Shown one piece after another: positions 40,348 through 48,004 of a DNA stretch of 64,000 nt. The notes below the pieces were generated by a model. That model was not told the DNA's origin. It was given only the letters and a program-made list of their open reading frames with translations, and ran no database searches. The stretch covers positions 434,001 through 498,000 of the forward strand of contig NZ_JAPNXS010000001.1 of assembly GCF_030397575.1 (NCBI RefSeq), read 5' to 3'. How positions within the stretch are numbered: the first letter of the stretch is position 1; every line of letters starts with the position of its first letter. The translations under genes were made by a program, and so were the position numbers. Origin of the DNA: Psychromonas sp. 14N.309.X.WAT.B.A12 (GTDB taxonomy: Bacteria > Pseudomonadota > Gammaproteobacteria > Enterobacterales > Psychromonadaceae).

Positions 40348-40363
40348 TTGAACGATCGTTATA
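40348..40363. promoter_or_regulatory. TetR-type operator A1 (distal), GST promoter
   Basis: TTGAACGATCGTTATA differs from the palindrome TTGAACGATCGTTCAA only in the last arm. A perfect TATAAT (40360-40365) overlaps its right edge, so a bound repressor would cover the -10 element. The same sequence recurs before the CMD gene at 44555-44570. Confidence 0.75.
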
Positions 40364-40370
40364 ATTGTGT

Positions 40371-40386
40371 TTGAATGAGTGTTCAA
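40371..40386. promoter_or_regulatory. TetR-type operator A2 (proximal), GST promoter
   Basis: TTGAATGAGTGTTCAA, a palindrome with arms TTGAA/TTCAA, is centred 23 bp from A1. The centre GAGTG is shared with the proximal site of the CMD gene and the tetR site. Confidence 0.72.
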
Positions 40387-40403
40387 TTAATGAGGAGTTT
40401 CAC

Positions 40404-41081
40404 ATGATTAAATTTTATTTTCACCATACACCTAACCCAATGAAAGTTGCACTTTTCCTAGAAGAAACTGGTTTACCTTACGAAGTGGTTCCTCTTGATA
40501 CATTAAAAGGTGAGCAGCATACACCTGAATACAAAGCAATTAATCCAAATGCTAAAGCACCTGCTATTACTGATGGTGAAACACGTGTTTTTGATTCTAA
40601 CGCTATCTTAATGTACCTTTCTGAAAAATCAGGTAAGTTGACTGGTAAACCTGAAGACCGTGGTGAAATGCTTTCATGGTTGATGTTCATTGCATCAGGT
40701 CTAGGCCCATACTCTGGCCAATCTGTACATTTTAGACATGCCGCTCCAGAAGGCTTAGACTATGCAGTTAACCGTTACTTACGTGAAGCTCAACGTCACT
40801 ATGAAGTACTAGATACTCACATGGAAGGCCGAGAGTTTATTGTAGGTAATGAATTCTCTATTGCAGATGTGTCTGCATGGGGCTGGGTTGATAAAGCAGC
40901 TGTTGTACTAGGAGAAGAGGGACTTGCACCTTACCCTAACCTAAAGCGCTGGTTTGAAAGTATTGATAGCCGTCCTGCTGTGGCACGTGCGCGTAATATC
41001 GCATCTGATGTGGAATTTAAAAAAGAGTTTGATGAAGAAGCTAAACGTGCTTTCTTCCCTTCAAATTATCCAAAAGCTTAA
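40404..41081 (+). CDS. Nu-class glutathione transferase (YfcG-like)
   Basis: A 225-residue GST with the thioredoxin-like N-terminal domain and helical C-terminal domain. HHTPNPMKVALFLEE puts Thr9 and Asn11 where E. coli YfcG has its glutathione-contacting residues; there is no catalytic Tyr, Ser or Cys, which marks the nu class with disulfide-bond reductase activity. SNAILMYLSEK is the glutathione gamma-glutamyl site. The start at 40404 has AGGAG 7 nt upstream; the upstream ATG at 40365 lies between the two operators and is unlikely. It is followed after 20 bp by yghU, so the two are an operon under the palindromic operators. Confidence 0.85.
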   Translation: MIKFYFHHTPNPMKVALFLEETGLPYEVVPLDTLKGEQHTPEYKAINPNAKAPAITDGETRVFDSNAILMYLSEKSGKLTGKPEDRGEMLSWLMFIASGLGPYSGQSVHFRHAAPEGLDYAVNRYLREAQRHYEVLDTHMEGREFIVGNEFSIADVSAWGWVDKAAVVLGEEGLAPYPNLKRWFESIDSRPAVARARNIASDVEFKKEFDEEAKRAFFPSNYPKA

Positions 41082-41101
41082 TTTACCAATAAGGAGTGAA
41101 T

Positions 41102-41962
41102 ATGACTGATCAATATGTCCCACCTAAAATTTGGGTACATGATACTAATGGCGGCAATAAATGGGCTAACATTAATCGACCGGAGTCCGGTGCTACTCAT
41201 GAAAAAGAGTTACCAGTCGGAGAGCATAAGTTGCAGTTATATTCCTTAGGGACTCCTAATGGTCAGAAAGTGACTATTATGCTTGAAGAACTATTAGCTT
41301 TAGGCATTAGTGAAGCTGAGTATGACGCTTATTTAATTAACATTGGTGAAGGTGACCAATTTTCATCTGGCTTTGTCGGTGTCAATCCTAACTCAAAAAT
41401 ACCAGCATTAGTTGATAAAACAGCTGATCAAGATCTCAATGTATTTGAGTCTGCTTCTATCCTTGTGCATTTAGCTGAGAAGTTCGGTCAGTTTCTACCT
41501 GCTTCAGGTGTTGCCAGAACAACTACGTTTAACTGGTTATTTTGGGCACAAGGTTCTGCTCCATTTTTAGGTGGTGGTTTTGGTCACTTTTATGCTTATG
41601 CAGATGAAAAGTTTGAATATCCAATTAATCGATTTGCGATGGAAGCTAAACGTCAACTTGATGTATTAGACAAACAACTAGCTAACAATACTTTTGTTGC
41701 TGGGGAAGAGATCTCTATTGCTGACATGGCTATTTGGCCTTGGTACGGTAACTTAGTATTAGGTAATTTATACGATGCTGCTGAGTTCTTACAAGTTGAA
41801 ACTTATACACATGTGATGCGTTGGGCTAAACTACTTGAACAACGCCAAGGTTTTCAACGTGGTCGTACAGTAAATCGTCCATTTGGAGAAGAATGGGAAA
41901 AAGTAGAAGAGCGACATTCTGCAGCGGATATAGATAAAGTGTTAGCCAAAAAGCCTCAATAA
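41102..41962 (+). CDS. yghU: Glutathione-dependent disulfide-bond oxidoreductase YghU
   Basis: A nu-class GST that in E. coli binds two glutathiones and reduces disulfides and organic hydroperoxides. The sequence tracks YghU through most of its length: NINRPESGATHEKELPVGEH, LYSLGTPNGQKVTIMLEELLALG, PNSKIPAL and GGGFGHFYAYA. It is 286 residues long from the ATG at 41102, which has AAGGAG at 5 nt. It is the second gene after the YfcG-like GST and ends in a strong terminator. Confidence 0.92.
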   Translation: MTDQYVPPKIWVHDTNGGNKWANINRPESGATHEKELPVGEHKLQLYSLGTPNGQKVTIMLEELLALGISEAEYDAYLINIGEGDQFSSGFVGVNPNSKIPALVDKTADQDLNVFESASILVHLAEKFGQFLPASGVARTTTFNWLFWAQGSAPFLGGGFGHFYAYADEKFEYPINRFAMEAKRQLDVLDKQLANNTFVAGEEISIADMAIWPWYGNLVLGNLYDAAEFLQVETYTHVMRWAKLLEQRQGFQRGRTVNRPFGEEWEKVEERHSAADIDKVLAKKPQ

Positions 41963-41981
41963 AGTTTGGTTGATAACATTT

Positions 41982-42020
41982 AAAAGTGGGTTAATGAAAG
42001 TTTCATTAACCCACTTTTTT
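41982..42020. terminator. Bidirectional terminator, yghU / 5'-nucleotidase gene
   Basis: A perfect 15-bp stem AAAAGTGGGTTAATG / CATTAACCCACTTTT with a 7-nt loop lies between convergent genes, with T and A runs on the two sides. Confidence 0.88.
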
Positions 42021-42024
42021 GTAT

Positions 42025-43740
42025 TTATCCAAGATTTAAATTTAATTTTTCTGGATATTGTTTAATCATCTCAATAAAACAGTCCGCCATTGAACATTGG
42101 GTAATTGTACCTTCACCTTCCATCATGGTTAAAGCATCATAACCTTCTTTTCCTTTCATGGTATAGGCGGAAGAGGTACCACGATAAAAAGTGTCAGGTT
42201 GCACTTTTATCCAGCCATTGCTTTTGTCAAATATCGCTAATTCAGTAATGCGTTTGCCAACAGGGCGTTCTGCACAATAGGTGAATGTTAAGTTATTTGT
42301 GTAGGGATAACTTCCTGTGCCACTGCCTACAACACCATTATTGGTTGCATTATTAATTGCACCTTCGAGTGCTTGTTCAATATATTTACCTTGAATTTGA
42401 TAGACCCCGATAGGTACTACAAAAGGCAGTAACTTCCCTGCAATGTCTGCGACAGAAATATCACCTTGATTTAATGATGAGCGAATACCGCCAGCATTAT
42501 GGATCGCAAAATCGACTTTATGACCTAATTTATTCATCATGAAAGAAAATGATTCTGCAACGAGAGGAACAAGGTCGCTGCCTCCTTTTTCATCAGGAAT
42601 ACGAATATGGCGCATATCCTGCGGTAAAGTAGCAATAATGGTATTTTGTAATTTTCGTACCCTTGGTATGTATTTATCCAATAAAAGACTCTGTAATAAA
42701 GGATCCTTTTTACAAATTATAATATTGTCATGATGAGTCAGGCGTTCACCGGCTTTAGCAGCAATGTCTCCATCGAGTGTGCTTAGTAAGCTTTTATCGT
42801 GACATAATCTACGACCAAAAAGTAATTCGTTTTTGCCCGCAAAAGAAGTGACTCTGCCATCTTCAGCAAAATCAATATTACAATGACCTATGGCCTGAGC
42901 ATGACACCCTGCTTGAACAATATAAGTATCATTAATACACTCACCATAGTCTGCTTCGTGTTTAAGTCCAATATCACTAAAATCTCCTTGCAATACATGC
43001 GTATGCCCACCAACGATTAAACTAATGCCTGTTACCGCCTTTGCTAAATCTTTATCTCCCTCATAGCCTAAGTGACTTAATAGGATGATCTTATTTATCC
43101 CGGCTGCTTGAATTGCTTTAACGGTGTTAATAGCGGTTTCAATGGCATTAGTAAATGGTGTATCAGGATCAACATTAGCAATATCCATCATCTTATCGAT
43201 AGAAAGGCCAAATAAAGCAATGTATTCACCATCTACTTTTTGGGTTATCCAGTTCGCTGTTTTGTGTTCAGCTTGGTATGTGAAGAGGTTATCGCGGTTA
43301 CTTAATTGATGTGACTTTGTGGGTAATTCATTTGAAAGGTCCCAATTACCCGCTAACAGCGGAAACTCGATACGGTCAAGAAAGTCAGCGATAGGTTGAT
43401 TACCCATATCCAATTCATGATTACCAATGGTCATCATATCAATACCTAATGCATTAAGCATTTCAGCATTTGCTTTACCTTTAAATAAGGAAAAATATAA
43501 AGTACCTTGGAAACAATCACCCGCGTGTAAGAATAGAAAATGTCTCTGTTGTTCTTTCGCTGAAGCTTTGAGTTGTTTTACTCTGGTCGCTATTCGAGAA
43601 AATCCACCATTACTCACGTATGGCGAGATACTTTTCCCTTCTATATTTAACTGTAATTGTAACGCATGAGGTTCAAAGTAGGAGTGAGTATCATTAATAT
43701 GAGCAAGTGTTAATGTCACTGCTTTATTGTTTTTTATCAT
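42025..43740 (-). CDS. Metallophosphatase / 5'-nucleotidase family protein without signal peptide
   Basis: The two-domain architecture of UshA-type nucleotidases: an N-terminal calcineurin-like metallophosphatase domain and a C-terminal substrate-binding domain from about residue 350. Metal motifs are HINDTH (residues 14-19), HAGDCFQG, TIGNHELD, SHLGYEGD and GGHTH; the C-terminal domain has IHNAGGIRSSL and GYDAL. The start MIKNNKAVTLTLAHINDTH has no signal peptide, whereas UshA is periplasmic, so this enzyme is probably cytoplasmic. The substrate may be a nucleotide or a nucleotide-like phosphoester. It sits between the two TetR-controlled units but shows no operator. Confidence 0.85.
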   Translation of the reverse strand: MIKNNKAVTLTLAHINDTHSYFEPHALQLQLNIEGKSISPYVSNGGFSRIATRVKQLKASAKEQQRHFLFLHAGDCFQGTLYFSLFKGKANAEMLNALGIDMMTIGNHELDMGNQPIADFLDRIEFPLLAGNWDLSNELPTKSHQLSNRDNLFTYQAEHKTANWITQKVDGEYIALFGLSIDKMMDIANVDPDTPFTNAIETAINTVKAIQAAGINKIILLSHLGYEGDKDLAKAVTGISLIVGGHTHVLQGDFSDIGLKHEADYGECINDTYIVQAGCHAQAIGHCNIDFAEDGRVTSFAGKNELLFGRRLCHDKSLLSTLDGDIAAKAGERLTHHDNIIICKKDPLLQSLLLDKYIPRVRKLQNTIIATLPQDMRHIRIPDEKGGSDLVPLVAESFSFMMNKLGHKVDFAIHNAGGIRSSLNQGDISVADIAGKLLPFVVPIGVYQIQGKYIEQALEGAINNATNNGVVGSGTGSYPYTNNLTFTYCAERPVGKRITELAIFDKSNGWIKVQPDTFYRGTSSAYTMKGKEGYDALTMMEGEGTITQCSMADCFIEMIKQYPEKLNLNLG

Positions 43741-43843
43741 AAGCCTTCTTAATTGATATTTATCTCAATTATAATCCACTAATAGGATAGGCTAACACTA
43801 TGATTAAAAGTTATAAATAATTATTAATAAAATCATTAACAAT

Positions 43844-43877
43844 AAAAAAGGGGCCTTGTTATTACTACAAGCCCCCC
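43844..43877 (-). terminator. Terminator of the CMD-family gene
   Basis: On the minus strand a GC-rich hairpin (GGGGC-TTGT with ACAA-GGCCCC, one bulge) is followed by TTTTTT. Confidence 0.7.
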
Positions 43878-43911
43878 AAAGCGGTTAAACCTAATAATTA
43901 AATATTAATTA

Positions 43912-44460
43912 TTATTTTTCCCAAGCAAATGATTCAAACATTGGATCAACGGGTGTTTTTGCTACGTGGTTAACGTAGTTACTGATTGTTTTTTGTGACA
44001 AGCCAAGAATGACTTCTAATACTTGTTGTTGTCCATAACCTGCCGCAAAAAATGCATCCATATCAGTTGCTGGCACATTACCACGGTTACGTACCATGCT
44101 TAATGTGAAGTCATGTAAAGCTTGTAGCTTCGCTGTAGGCATTTTATCACCATTACGCAGGGCTTCTGTTAATGCTGCATCTACATTCATCGAATGTGCA
44201 ATGCCTGTATGAGCAGGTACACAGTAATGACATTCATGTTCCACATTGATTGTTTGCCATACAACTGTTAACTCTTCTGCATCGAAAGAAGTGTTTGTGA
44301 ATTGTTCATGTAGTTGTGTGTAAGCTTTTAAAATGGTTGGTGCTTCAGCCATTGTACCGAATAAATTTGGCACCACACCCATTTGTTTAATAGCACCTTC
44401 AAGAATTGGCTTACTTTGTGCTGGAGCTGTGTCTACTGTATGAATTTGAAATTTGCTCAT
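43912..44460 (-). CDS. Carboxymuconolactone decarboxylase/AhpD-like protein
   Basis: A 182-residue member of the CMD/AhpD superfamily. The redox motif is EHECHYCVPAHT with C77, C80 and H84, the arrangement used by AhpD-type thiol peroxidases or reductases; it is therefore more likely a redox enzyme than a decarboxylase. I start at the ATG at 44460, giving MSKFQIHTVDTAP; the open frame to 44508 has no support and would include part of the promoter. Two palindromic operators identical in type to those of the GST operon stand at 44533-44570, so it belongs to the TetR regulon defined here. Confidence 0.8.
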   Translation of the reverse strand: MSKFQIHTVDTAPAQSKPILEGAIKQMGVVPNLFGTMAEAPTILKAYTQLHEQFTNTSFDAEELTVVWQTINVEHECHYCVPAHTGIAHSMNVDAALTEALRNGDKMPTAKLQALHDFTLSMVRNRGNVPATDMDAFFAAGYGQQQVLEVILGLSQKTISNYVNHVAKTPVDPMFESFAWEK

Positions 44461-44532
44461 TAATTTACTCTCTCTAGTGAAAAATGAATTTTGAAGATTA
44501 CTCTTCAATCAGTAAATCCATCATAGTTCATT

Positions 44533-44548
44533 GTGAACGAGTGTTCAA
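44533..44548. promoter_or_regulatory. TetR-type operator B1 (proximal), CMD promoter
   Basis: GTGAACGAGTGTTCAA; read toward the gene it is the GAGTG-type site closest to the start codon. It corresponds to A2 and to the tetR site. Confidence 0.75.
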
Positions 44549-44554
44549 GTATTT

Positions 44555-44570
44555 TGTAACGATCGTTCAA
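44555..44570. promoter_or_regulatory. TetR-type operator B2 (distal), CMD promoter
   Basis: TGTAACGATCGTTCAA shares the central AACGATCGTT with site A1. It is centred 22 bp from B1, in the same distal/proximal order relative to its gene as A1/A2. A TACAAAAT between them on the minus strand may be the -10. Confidence 0.75.
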
Positions 44571-44701
44571 ATTTATTGAGATATAAAATTAAATAAAAGA
44601 TAGGGTTAAATACGACAATATAAAGAATGCAATGTCTGCGTGATACAAGCAGTCTATGTAGTTGTTATAAACAAAAGATTTGTGAAGAGAAAAGAGGGAA
44701 T

Positions 44702-44769
44702 TAGCTATTATATTGTTACTGAAATTATTAGTATCAAACTAATATTGTAAATCTTATATATAATAGCTA
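44702..44769. repeat. Nested inverted repeat downstream of tetR
   Basis: Outer perfect 12-bp arms TAGCTATTATAT / ATATAATAGCTA enclose about 44 bp that contains a second palindrome, ATTAGT-ATCAA-ACTAAT. The whole can fold as one long AU-rich hairpin. It may be the tetR 3' end or a decayed mobile repeat. Confidence 0.5.
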
Positions 44770-44781
44770 TTGGTGGTTAGA

Positions 44782-45372
44782 TTAGTGAAATGGAGAACCG
44801 ATGAAAATTTCATTTACAAATTTGTTAATCGTCTCGACATTGCTATTAACACGCGCATAAGTTCTTAAACCTATGATTTGTACTTGAATATAACTGGCTA
44901 ATTCTTTGGCATCTTTATCTGATGCAATCTCGCCAAGTTTAATAGCTTCAGTAATGATCTCTGCAAATTTATTTTCAACATTGGCCAATAATAGTTTAGC
45001 TTCATCTAATAATTCCTTATTATCTGCGTCAGTTAATTCGGAGATAGATTTAACTATCATGCACATGCAACTTGGTTTGCCTTCTAAATTCTCAATAACC
45101 AGTTTTCTGATAAACAGTTTGAGGCCTTCTAAAGGAGAACTTGTTTCTGCTAAACAGTTTTCTAAGACTTCACCAGTCTTGTTGGCATAATACTGAATCG
45201 ATTCTTTGAATAGATTGTCTTTACTACCAAACGTTGCATAAATACTGCCAGGACGAAGATCAATAGCTGTCTGTAAATTGCGCATAGAAGTACCGTGATA
45301 ACCTTTACCCCAGTATAAATTTGTCGCTTTTTGTATTACTTCTTCTCGGTCAAACTTGGCAACTTTACTCAT
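44782..45372 (-). CDS. TetR family transcriptional regulator
   Basis: A 196-residue one-component repressor. The N-terminal HTH is GYHGTSMRNLQTAIDLRPGSIYATFGSKDNLFKES at about residues 23-57; the C-terminal ligand domain has cysteines in SCMCMIV (about 99-101) that could sense thiol-reactive compounds. The ATG at 45372 follows an in-frame TTG at 45378. One palindrome, GAACACTCGTTC, precedes it and matches the operators of the GST and CMD genes, so it is likely autoregulated and represses those genes. The electrophile or peroxide inducer is inferred from target function. Confidence 0.85.
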   Translation of the reverse strand: MSKVAKFDREEVIQKATNLYWGKGYHGTSMRNLQTAIDLRPGSIYATFGSKDNLFKESIQYYANKTGEVLENCLAETSSPLEGLKLFIRKLVIENLEGKPSCMCMIVKSISELTDADNKELLDEAKLLLANVENKFAEIITEAIKLGEIASDKDAKELASYIQVQIIGLRTYARVNSNVETINKFVNEIFIGSPFH

Positions 45373-45393
45373 AAACAATCTTTTTATTTTTAA

Positions 45394-45409
45394 TGGAACA
45401 CTCGTTCAT
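45394..45409. promoter_or_regulatory. TetR-type operator C, tetR promoter
   Basis: TGGAACACTCGTTCAT. On the minus strand it reads ATGAACGAGTGTTCCA, nearly the same as B1. It lies 22 bp upstream of the tetR start. Confidence 0.75.
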
Positions 45410-45493
45410 TATACAACTAAACACAAAGCTTACCAAGCGTTACAGGGTATTTGTTAATAACAGAGTGAATGGACAGGGGACAATAAAGATGGG

Positions 45494-46178: not shown

Positions 46179-46973
46179 ATGAATAATTCAACAAAACCTA
46201 GAGTACTGTTTCTTTGTACAGGTAATTCAGCTCGTTCACAAATGGCGGAGGCATTATTACGCCATAAAGCTGGCAACAGATTCGATGTGTATAGTGCAGG
46301 AACTCATCCCGAGACTGTGGATCAAAGAGCATTAGATGCGCTAGCAAAATATGGCATTGAAACAAAAGGAGTGATGTCCAAAGATGTTGACTCTTTTACT
46401 GGAGAAGCTTTTGATTATGTTATTTCTCTTTGTGATAAAGCTAGCGTGGAATGCAGAAGTTACCCAAATGCTGGAAAACAACTTGCGTGGGATTTTCCAG
46501 ATCCTAAAAGCCGCTCAGGTGATCAACCTTTCTACTTGACATTAAATGAACTCAATACGCGCCTAGCAATGTTTTTATTAGTTGAAGAAAAACAAATAAA
46601 ACAACTTGAAGAGCAAGCTAATGAAGCGTCTTTGAACGAGTTTTTTAAGTGTTTAACGGACCCAATAAGGTTAAAAACCTTGATGCTTTCTCATTATCAC
46701 GGTGAGTTATGTGTCTGTGAGTTAATGGAAGCGCTACAAGAAGAGAGTCAACCTAAGGTATCACGTAATTTAGCAGTACTTAAAAAATCCAACATTATTA
46801 AAGATAGAAAACATGGACAATGGGTATTTTATCAAATTAACCCAAACCTACCTTTATGGGCTAAAACTGTGATTGCTCAGACAACTGAAAATAATATAGG
46901 GACGATCACCAGTGAATTACATCGATTAGATATTATGAAGAATCGCCCTAATCGCGCTAGTTTTTGTAAATAA
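46179..46973 (+). CDS. Fusion of LMW-PTP-type arsenate reductase and ArsR repressor
   Basis: Residues 1-140 are a low-molecular-weight phosphatase-type arsenate reductase: the anion loop C13-TGNSA-R19-S and the redox pair C85/C92, spaced by seven as in thioredoxin-coupled ArsC, are present, with WDFPDP carrying the acid. Residues 150-235 are an ArsR/SmtB winged helix with the As(III)-binding ELCVCEL (C178, C180); the third cysteine of E. coli ArsR is replaced by Met. The product may be both enzyme and repressor of its own operon. It is the first gene before acr3. Such fusions are known in some gammaproteobacteria. Confidence 0.85.
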
Positions 46974-46993: not shown

Positions 46994-48004
46994 ATGGGTA
47001 TTTTTGAACGTTATTTGTCTGTTTGGATTGCAATCTGTATTACTACCGGTGTGATACTGGGCTTATGGCAGCCAAGTGTATTCGAAACGTTAGCAAGTGT
47101 AGAGTTTGCTCACGTCAATATTATTGTGGCTGTATGTATCTGGGTGATGATTTACCCAATGATGGTACAAATTGACTTTTCATCTATTAAAGATGTTGGT
47201 AAAAATCCAAAAGGATTAATATTAACGGTCATCATTAATTGGCTGATTAAACCTTTTACTATGGCCGGATTAGGTTGGTTGTTTTTCAATTTGTTATTTG
47301 CCGATTTAGTGGATCCTGCTTCTGCCCAAGAATATATAGCGGGTATGATCTTGTTAGGTGTTGCTCCTTGTACTGCAATGGTTTTTGTTTGGTCTCAATT
47401 GACTAAAGGTGATCCGAACTATACCTTAGTACAAGTTTCTGTGAATGATGTGATCATGATTTTTGCTTTTGCACCTATCTCTGCACTATTACTGGGTGTT
47501 AGTGATATTCAAGTACCCTGGGAAACATTGATAATTTCTGTTGTGCTTTATGTGTTTTTACCTTTACTCGCAGGGATCATCACAAGGTATTTATTATCCT
47601 CCAGCAGCCATTCTGTTGATGGCTTTTTATCAACAATGAAACCCTGGTCTGTTATTGGTTTATTAGCGACGGTGGTTTTATTATTTGGATTTCAAGCTAA
47701 TACCATTATTGCTGAACCGCAAACCATACTATTAATCGCTATCCCACTTATCTTGCAAACCTACGGTATCTTTGCCGTTACCTATTTTATCGCTCAAAAA
47801 ATGAAACTACCGCATAATATTGCTGCACCAGCTTGTTTGATTGGTACTTCAAACTTTTTTGAATTAGCAGTGGCTGTTGCAATCTCATTATTTGGTTTAC
47901 ATTCTGGTGCTGCGCTAGCTACTGTAGTCGGAGTACTGGTAGAAGTGCCTGTGATGTTATCATTGGTAGCGATCTTAAACAGAATAAAAAGTAATCGTAT
48001 TTAA
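46994..48004 (+). CDS. acr3: Acr3 family arsenite efflux permease
   Basis: An arsenite exporter of the bile/arsenite/riboflavin transporter superfamily with ten predicted membrane helices in 336 residues. The conserved cysteine needed for As(III) transport is in [18 protein letters not shown]. The N-terminal [20 protein letters not shown] matches the family. It starts 20 bp after the ArsC-ArsR fusion gene, in one operon. It has no ArsA ATPase partner, as is usual for Acr3. Confidence 0.92.

Follow-up and report, generated by a model that had tools for sequence, protein, structure and literature searches.

The window analysed here is a 64,000-nucleotide stretch of the genome of Psychromonas sp. 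14N.309.X.WAT.B.A12 (contig NZ_JAPNXS010000001.1, positions 434,001 to 498,000 of the forward strand). Between its positions 40,348 and 45,409 lie a yfcG-yghU operon for two glutathione-handling proteins, a CMD/AhpD-like gene (cmd) and a gene for a TetR-type regulator (tetR), and five palindromes stand before these three transcription units (Table 1). A first-pass annotation had read the cluster as the regulon of an autorepressed TetR. Autoregulation of tetR together with control of cmd and yfcG-yghU is now strongly supported by the conservation of the operator, of its spacing and of the gene partners across genera, and by the co-occurrence of the sites with tetR.

Table 1. Genes, operators and promoter elements of the tetR cluster (positions in the window)
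Feature	Position	Strand	Sequence or length	Remarks
Operator, distal, yfcG-yghU promoter	40348..40363		TTGAACGATCGTTATA	Related sites before yfcG in Psychromonas
Likely -10 of yfcG-yghU promoter	40360..40365	+	TATAAT	Overlaps distal operator
Operator, proximal, yfcG-yghU promoter	40371..40386		TTGAATGAGTGTTCAA	23 base pairs (bp) from distal site
YfcG-like glutathione transferase	40404..41081	+	225 amino acids	Pfam GST_N/GST_C; closest PDB 4l8e, then YfcG 5hfk, 3gx0
yghU, glutathione-dependent disulfide-bond oxidoreductase	41102..41962	+	286 amino acids	NCBIfam PRK11752, 488.8 bits (cut-off 325)
cmd, CMD/AhpD-like protein	43912..44460	-	182 amino acids	CHYC motif; phmmer PDB 6e8l 'AhpD' 1.6e-31, 3lvy 1.8e-28
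cmd promoter	44520..44548	-	TTGAAC-17-TATGAT	Promoter scan; -35 (44548-44543) is first half of proximal operator
Operator, proximal, cmd promoter	44533..44548		GTGAACGAGTGTTCAA	
Operator, distal, cmd promoter	44555..44570		TGTAACGATCGTTCAA	22 bp from proximal site
tetR, regulator	44782..45372	-	196 amino acids	Invariant Cys104; Pfam TetR_N 36.3 bits (cut-off 24), TetR_C_13 28.8 (27)
Operator, single, tetR promoter	45394..45409		TGGAACACTCGTTCAT	ATGAACGAGTGTTCCA on - strand
tetR promoter	45408..45436	-	TTGGTA-17-TATAAT	-10 overlaps single operator by two bases

The product of the first gene is YfcG-like and not the equivalog, scoring 165.9 bits in the NCBIfam model for YfcG (PRK13972) vs a cut-off of 332. 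The cmd product gave no CMD match in Pfam at E values up to 1 and falls below the cut-off of NCBIfam TIGR01926 (50.6 vs 81.8), and it is homologous to solved AhpD-like proteins. The predicted fold of TetR, with a mean pLDDT (predicted local distance difference test score) of 89.1, resembles TetR structures, the epoxide sensor CifR being the nearest solved one, and places the protein in the TetR/AcrR family. An UshA/NadN-like nucleotidase gene (42025-43740, minus strand) lies between the two target units and has no operator match before it.

All five palindromes that the first-pass annotation had placed before yfcG-yghU, cmd and tetR are present where it had put them, and the distances within the pairs at yfcG and cmd, measured start to start, also agree with it. 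When the window was searched with the 16-mer consensus at up to 3 mismatches, 4 matches appeared, all in the cluster (0.33 expected; 0 of 100 shuffles reached 4); the tetR site, with 4 mismatches, is the fifth palindrome. Having 2, 3, 3, 2 and 4 mismatches to the consensus, the palindromes are less alike than the word 'near-identical' had suggested. The division of the operators into a GATC and a GAGTG type is not kept in relatives, where the four bases in the centre change and the constant part is TTGAAC-N4-GTTCAA, and for this reason the two types are rejected as a conserved trait. GAGTG is read on different strands at the yfcG and cmd promoters. Across the whole genome of this strain, 25 single sites were counted (3 mismatches allowed) vs 24 for the reversed control, so that a lone site carries little weight. 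Among these 25 places, only yfcG and cmd are preceded by pairs 22-23 bp apart. It is by pairing, position and conservation that the operators stand out, and not by their number. Inspection covered 15 of the 25 places: four are the window cluster, one lies before a FrnE/DsbA-like gene (frnE), and at ten further places (L111-L113 and L116-L122) no convincing extra target was seen, the sites at L111, L113, L116 and L121 lying inside an open reading frame (ORF) and those at L112 and L122 upstream of one.

Conservation in other genera was assessed in the best 80 of 550 loci by TetR similarity, some of which share one genome; the sites played no part in the choice. Leaving out 4 Psychromonas loci gave 76 loci from Vibrio, Shewanella, Psychrobacter, Marinomonas, Colwellia and others. 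Pairs of TTGAAC-N4-GTTCAA at 22-25 bp occur in 57 of the 76 vs 0 and 1 for two scrambled-half-site controls, and the remaining pair distances up to 80 bp are all 35-39 or 59-62. Upstream sites, counted with ORFs within 320 bases of a locus end excluded, stand before cmd in 46/46 cases, yfcG in 15/17, tetR in 52/74 and other ORFs in 37/819, and upstream pairs before cmd in 42/46, tetR in 39/74, yfcG in 4/17 and others in 7/819. Three weak homologues were set apart (weak cmd 0/1, weak tetR 0/1 and weak yfcG 1/1 with a site). The tetR figure of 52/74 is an undercount because the longest ORF was taken as the start; L042, L048 and L105 show a site just before tetR. Sixteen of the 22 tetR genes with no counted site have yfcG, yghU or cmd upstream of them on their own strand. 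The yghU gene, which often lies downstream of yfcG, has its own site in 3/23. In the 4 Psychromonas loci that were set apart, sites precede cmd in 4/4, tetR in 3/4, yghU in 0/2, frnE in 1/1 and other ORFs in 1/20. The check that the first-pass annotation had proposed, TetR orthologues combined with an operator scan in relatives, has thus been run on the computer, and the palindromes are kept before cmd and yfcG.

Outside Psychromonas, sites also occur near haloacid dehalogenase type II genes in Agarivorans (L037) and Aliiglaciecola (L100), near genes for a haloalkane dehalogenase, an ABM-domain protein and an MFS transporter in Psychrobacter, and, in one Vibrio, near a nitroreductase gene; these cases are few, mostly of single sites, and weaker. 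The haloalkane dehalogenase gene of Psychrobacter L057 (8712-9629) is near tetR and has a single operator-like site upstream. Similar genes are found in L063, L072, L074, L075 and L076, with the family assigned for L057 only.

Of the 24 Psychromonas genomes, 14 have a tetR orthologue (at least 40% identity), and precisely these 14 also have cmd (E up to 1e-40); among the ten tetR-negative genomes, G010, G019 and G021 are less than 90% complete. The site precedes cmd in 14/14 tetR-positive genomes, tetR in 12/14 and, at up to 2 mismatches, yfcG in 9/12, and in G001 and G013 yfcG lies behind cmd with the same orientation. In the genome that holds the window, TTGAACGATCGTTCTT lies, on a different contig, 92 bp upstream of frnE, whose product matches Pfam DSBA (107.6 bits). 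The frnE site is found in 9/9 tetR-positive genomes with a standalone copy and is absent in 3 tetR-less genomes, G004, G012 and G021 (the last 51% complete). In two more tetR-positive genomes frnE is near cmd, with no site of its own in G006 and with a pair 276-299 bp upstream in G013. The conserved site suggests that the regulon is wider than three units and that the frnE/dsbA-like gene, outside the window, is a fourth target. In G003 and G018 there is a second, diverged tetR-cmd pair (L026 and L027; about 40% and 54% identity) with related sites of its own, and therefore the module seems to be duplicated within the genus.

The kinds of gene found here also bring to mind the alt or allicin-resistance clusters under the repressor AltR, and the regulon could likewise answer thiosulfinate or disulfide stress, with a marine organosulfur compound as the signal. 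According to the accessible part of PMC7119367, the PfAR-1 allicin islands of Pseudomonas hold tetR, dsbA/frnE and ahpD, and ahpD or dsbA alone gives allicin resistance; for AltR, the available text of PMC13178969 describes a requirement for Cys100 and repression of its own cluster. The AltR box described in the latter text, CAATCTAC-N6-GTAGATTG, is however a different operator, glutathione S-transferase is unmentioned in the accessible part of the PfAR-1 paper, and gene content was compared only in part, with no search made for oye, trx and kefFC in the genome. We regard a regulon that answers thiosulfinate or disulfide stress as rather unlikely.

A scan of 370 class genomes found TetR in 29 (E up to 1e-30) and the motif in 26 (up to 1 mismatch). 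The two occur together in 7 genomes (p = 0.002, Fisher test with kinship ignored), six of which carry the motif 18-116 bp upstream of tetR. When 29 of the 31 TetR matches from outside the own genome were taken in (the other two lacked a locus), 22/29 had a site within 300 bp upstream vs 0 and 1 for the controls. TTGAAAGATCGTTCAA is present five times on contig 1 of G221, with three of the copies lying 5,727 bp apart; this is probably part of a repeated element and unrelated.

Related TetR genes are also carried on plasmids, and 8 of 39 such plasmid records were examined. A CMD gene is annotated beside TetR in 6 of the 8 (two from Pseudoalteromonas, one each from Phaeobacter inhibens, Leisingera and Pseudooceanicola, and an IncC plasmid), and two Vibrio records have no annotation beside TetR. 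On the IncC plasmid pYDC637 (L247, 3588-5642), a haloacid dehalogenase type II gene lies between tetR and CMD, and the sites are of the TTGAGTGATCACTCAA type. TetR proteins of 33-34% identity occur in 21 enteric plasmid records. On both Pseudoalteromonas plasmids there are pairs with a spacing of 23 bp that conform to the marine pattern. That pattern has no match on the IncC plasmid; there, and on the Phaeobacter and Leisingera plasmids, the same type of site and a second related site were read by eye. The helix is TS(L/I)KDLE in the Phaeobacter, Leisingera, IncC and Pseudooceanicola proteins vs TSMRNLQ, and C104 is kept in 8/8 plasmid TetRs.

These observations bear on whether the palindromes might be bound by another regulator, with the tetR gene merely a neighbour. 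Psychromonas has more TetR-like proteins (18 first-look candidates in G000), and 19 of the 26 motif-bearing genomes of the class have no TetR at E 1e-30. Nevertheless, the sites stand on the tetR promoter across many genera and co-occur with TetR, the frnE sites are missing where tetR is missing, and the sites differ along with the DNA-reading helix of TetR. Binding by another regulator is highly improbable.

The first-pass annotation had put the likely -10 between the two sites of a pair. This agrees with yfcG, where TATAAT overlaps the distal site. At cmd the proximal operator is the -35, and at tetR TATAAT abuts the single site. A scan of the yfcG-yghU promoter for a sigma-70-like pair came up empty, with no good -35, and a scan of the cmd stretch gave 4 promoter-like matches vs 3.0 expected. 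In counts that pooled Psychromonas and other loci, 30 of 40 tetR pairs enclose a -10-like hexamer, 25 of them at the identical offset (null 77/839), and in 27 of 46 cmd pairs such a hexamer stands exactly 17 bp past the proximal TTGAAC. Since the proximal operator of cmd supplies TTGAAC-17-(-10) and the -10 of tetR often lies between sites, the operator belongs to the promoter, which would be shut by the binding of two dimers. The spacing of 22-25 bp would put two dimers on roughly one face of the DNA helix.

As for the protein, C104 is kept in 81/81 homologues and is the sole cysteine in 10 of them, and C102 is a cysteine in 5/81. Much of the C-terminal domain of TetR varies, while C104 does not, and C104 aligns with C107 of CifR. 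An earlier argument from the cysteines of the SCMCM motif thus holds for C104 and falls for C102. C102, or a C102-C104 disulfide, is rejected as a general mechanism.

From the sites, their spacing, the promoter geometry, the conservation, the co-occurrence with tetR and the invariance of C104, all of them read from the sequences, we infer that TetR would bind TTGAAC-N4-GTTCAA, as a rule with two dimers at sites spaced 22-25 bp, and would block the yfcG-yghU, cmd and tetR promoters as well as the frnE/dsbA-like gene elsewhere in the genome. Repression would be by occlusion, with the cmd-proximal operator holding the -35 and the -10 of tetR and yfcG lying next to or between sites. Derepression would most likely come about when a thiol-reactive electrophile covalently modifies Cys104, a residue close to where a helix of the C-terminal domain begins, and the glutathione-dependent oxidoreductases, the AhpD-like and the DsbA-like proteins would then handle the electrophile and mixed disulfides. 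Sensing of thiol-reactive stress by TetR is plausible, and electrophile sensing through C104 is likely. Taken as a whole, a TetR repressor that acts on paired operators, senses electrophiles through Cys104 and governs a detoxification regulon is in our judgement probable.

The same repressor and operators could instead respond to a non-covalent pocket ligand such as a haloacid, a haloalkane, an epoxide or an acrylate-like metabolite, with C104 being just a residue of the pocket. The haloacid dehalogenase type II genes adjacent to sites in L037, L100 and the tetR-dehalogenase-cmd group of the IncC plasmid, and the Psychrobacter haloalkane dehalogenase, would fit such a ligand. AcuR, the best NCBIfam match of TetR, binds acrylate and dimethylsulfoniopropionate, and the available part of PMC13104084 lists its Cys122 as a pocket residue only. 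The persistence of C104 in every homologue in the face of a variable C-terminal domain argues for more than a pocket residue, and the aligned C107 of CifR is replaced in structure 6nsm. We consider a pocket ligand rather unlikely.

Several points count against electrophile sensing through C104 and the regulon built on it. A cysteine may be conserved at this position without being a sensor. The yfcG genes of two Psychromonas loci scored no site (0/2), G015 has a yfcG pair only at 3 mismatches and a tetR with no site, and frnE carries a site in only 4/23 cases in the 76 loci. The reversed control pattern appears in 11/370 class genomes, and the motif-bearing genomes that have no TetR belong here as well. 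No site was found at yghU in G004 and G022, which have yghU and no tetR; this absence counts for little, since a site belonging to yghU itself is rare (1/15 other genus rows). In the accessible text of PMC13178969, AltR ignores diamide, N-ethylmaleimide and peroxide and answers to thiosulfinates only, so that a broad reading as thiol stress may be mistaken. According to the available part of PMC13104084, homologues of AcuR are able to work as activators.

Beyond the cluster, the window encodes at 46179-46973 (plus strand) a 264-amino-acid fusion of a low-molecular-weight-phosphatase domain (arsenate-reductase type) with an ArsR-type helix-turn-helix, followed at 46994-48004 by a gene that on reading is a candidate arsenite permease.

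The regulon is directly testable. Little is known of the natural substrates and inducers of YfcG/YghU-type glutathione transferases, AhpD-like and DsbA-like proteins, and for this gene set it supplies a regulator and a strong operator to work with. Since many marine genera share the arrangement and plasmids carry it as well, the identity of the inducer would reveal a reactive chemical that these bacteria regularly meet. An electrophile biosensor could also make use of the operator pair. More tentatively, and with somewhat less than an even chance of being right, we propose that TetR stands for an unnamed sensor branch that is spread over the Gamma- and Alphaproteobacteria and is also carried on a conjugative IncC plasmid, a single-cysteine reader of reactive environmental electrophiles (organohalides, epoxides or organosulfur oxidants). 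Such a branch would have a modular cmd-tetR core to which lineages added glutathione transferases, a DsbA-like oxidoreductase or dehalogenases, a double operator of about 39 bp as promoter core, and a half-site that changed from TTGAAC to TTGAGT with the DNA-reading helix.

Among known systems, CifR of Pseudomonas aeruginosa (PDB 6nsn, 6nsm, 6nsr) has the fold and the cysteine at the C107 position in common with the window TetR. CifR controls the cif epoxide-hydrolase operon, whereas none of the four target proteins of the window is an epoxide hydrolase or cif-like. NemR of Escherichia coli (PDB 4yze) has 13% identity to TetR and a different target gene, nemA. For AcuR of Rhodobacter sphaeroides and relatives, TetR scores 41.1 bits, far under the cut-off of 247. 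The AcuR operator, TAATAGAC-N6-GTCTATTA in the available part of PMC3017554, differs from TTGAAC-N4-GTTCAA, and AcuR controls acuI and dddL; membership in AcuR is rejected because score and operator both fail. AltR of Pantoea ananatis is similar by its description in the accessible text of PMC13178969, a TetR repressor of its own gene and thiol-stress genes with an essential cysteine and an inverted-repeat operator. Its targets, in contrast, lie in one alt cluster, and identity with AltR is rejected because the operators differ.

In the literature we found no experimental description of a TetR regulon with glutathione transferase and AhpD/CMD genes. The TetR regulons listed in the accessible part of PMC5343134 include none with glutathione, that of PMC4204640 concerns the pqi cluster, and that of PMC12306174 concerns alt clusters and has nothing on Shewanella or Psychromonas. 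A 2011 comparative-genomic reconstruction in Shewanella lists, in the available part of PMC3223726, a predicted regulon SO1578 labelled 'Glutathione detoxification', and the literature on SO1576-SO1578 gave nothing beyond this paper. The likeness to the window regulon lies in the functional label and in the marine relatives: the Shewanella loci L033, L042, L054, L103 and L106 carry a TetR of the window type, and in L103 tetR is directly before yghU. We take SO1578 to be a TetR gene adjoining a glutathione transferase gene. Going by the functional label, the SO1578 prediction and the window regulon may be the same thing. The earlier statement that no described regulator has this operator agrees with the differing operators of AltR and AcuR and with the 12-mer GAACGATCGTTC, which had no match in 5.39 million papers (text match only), and it has to be softened with respect to SO1578, since the 2011 prediction possibly foreshadowed the regulon described here.

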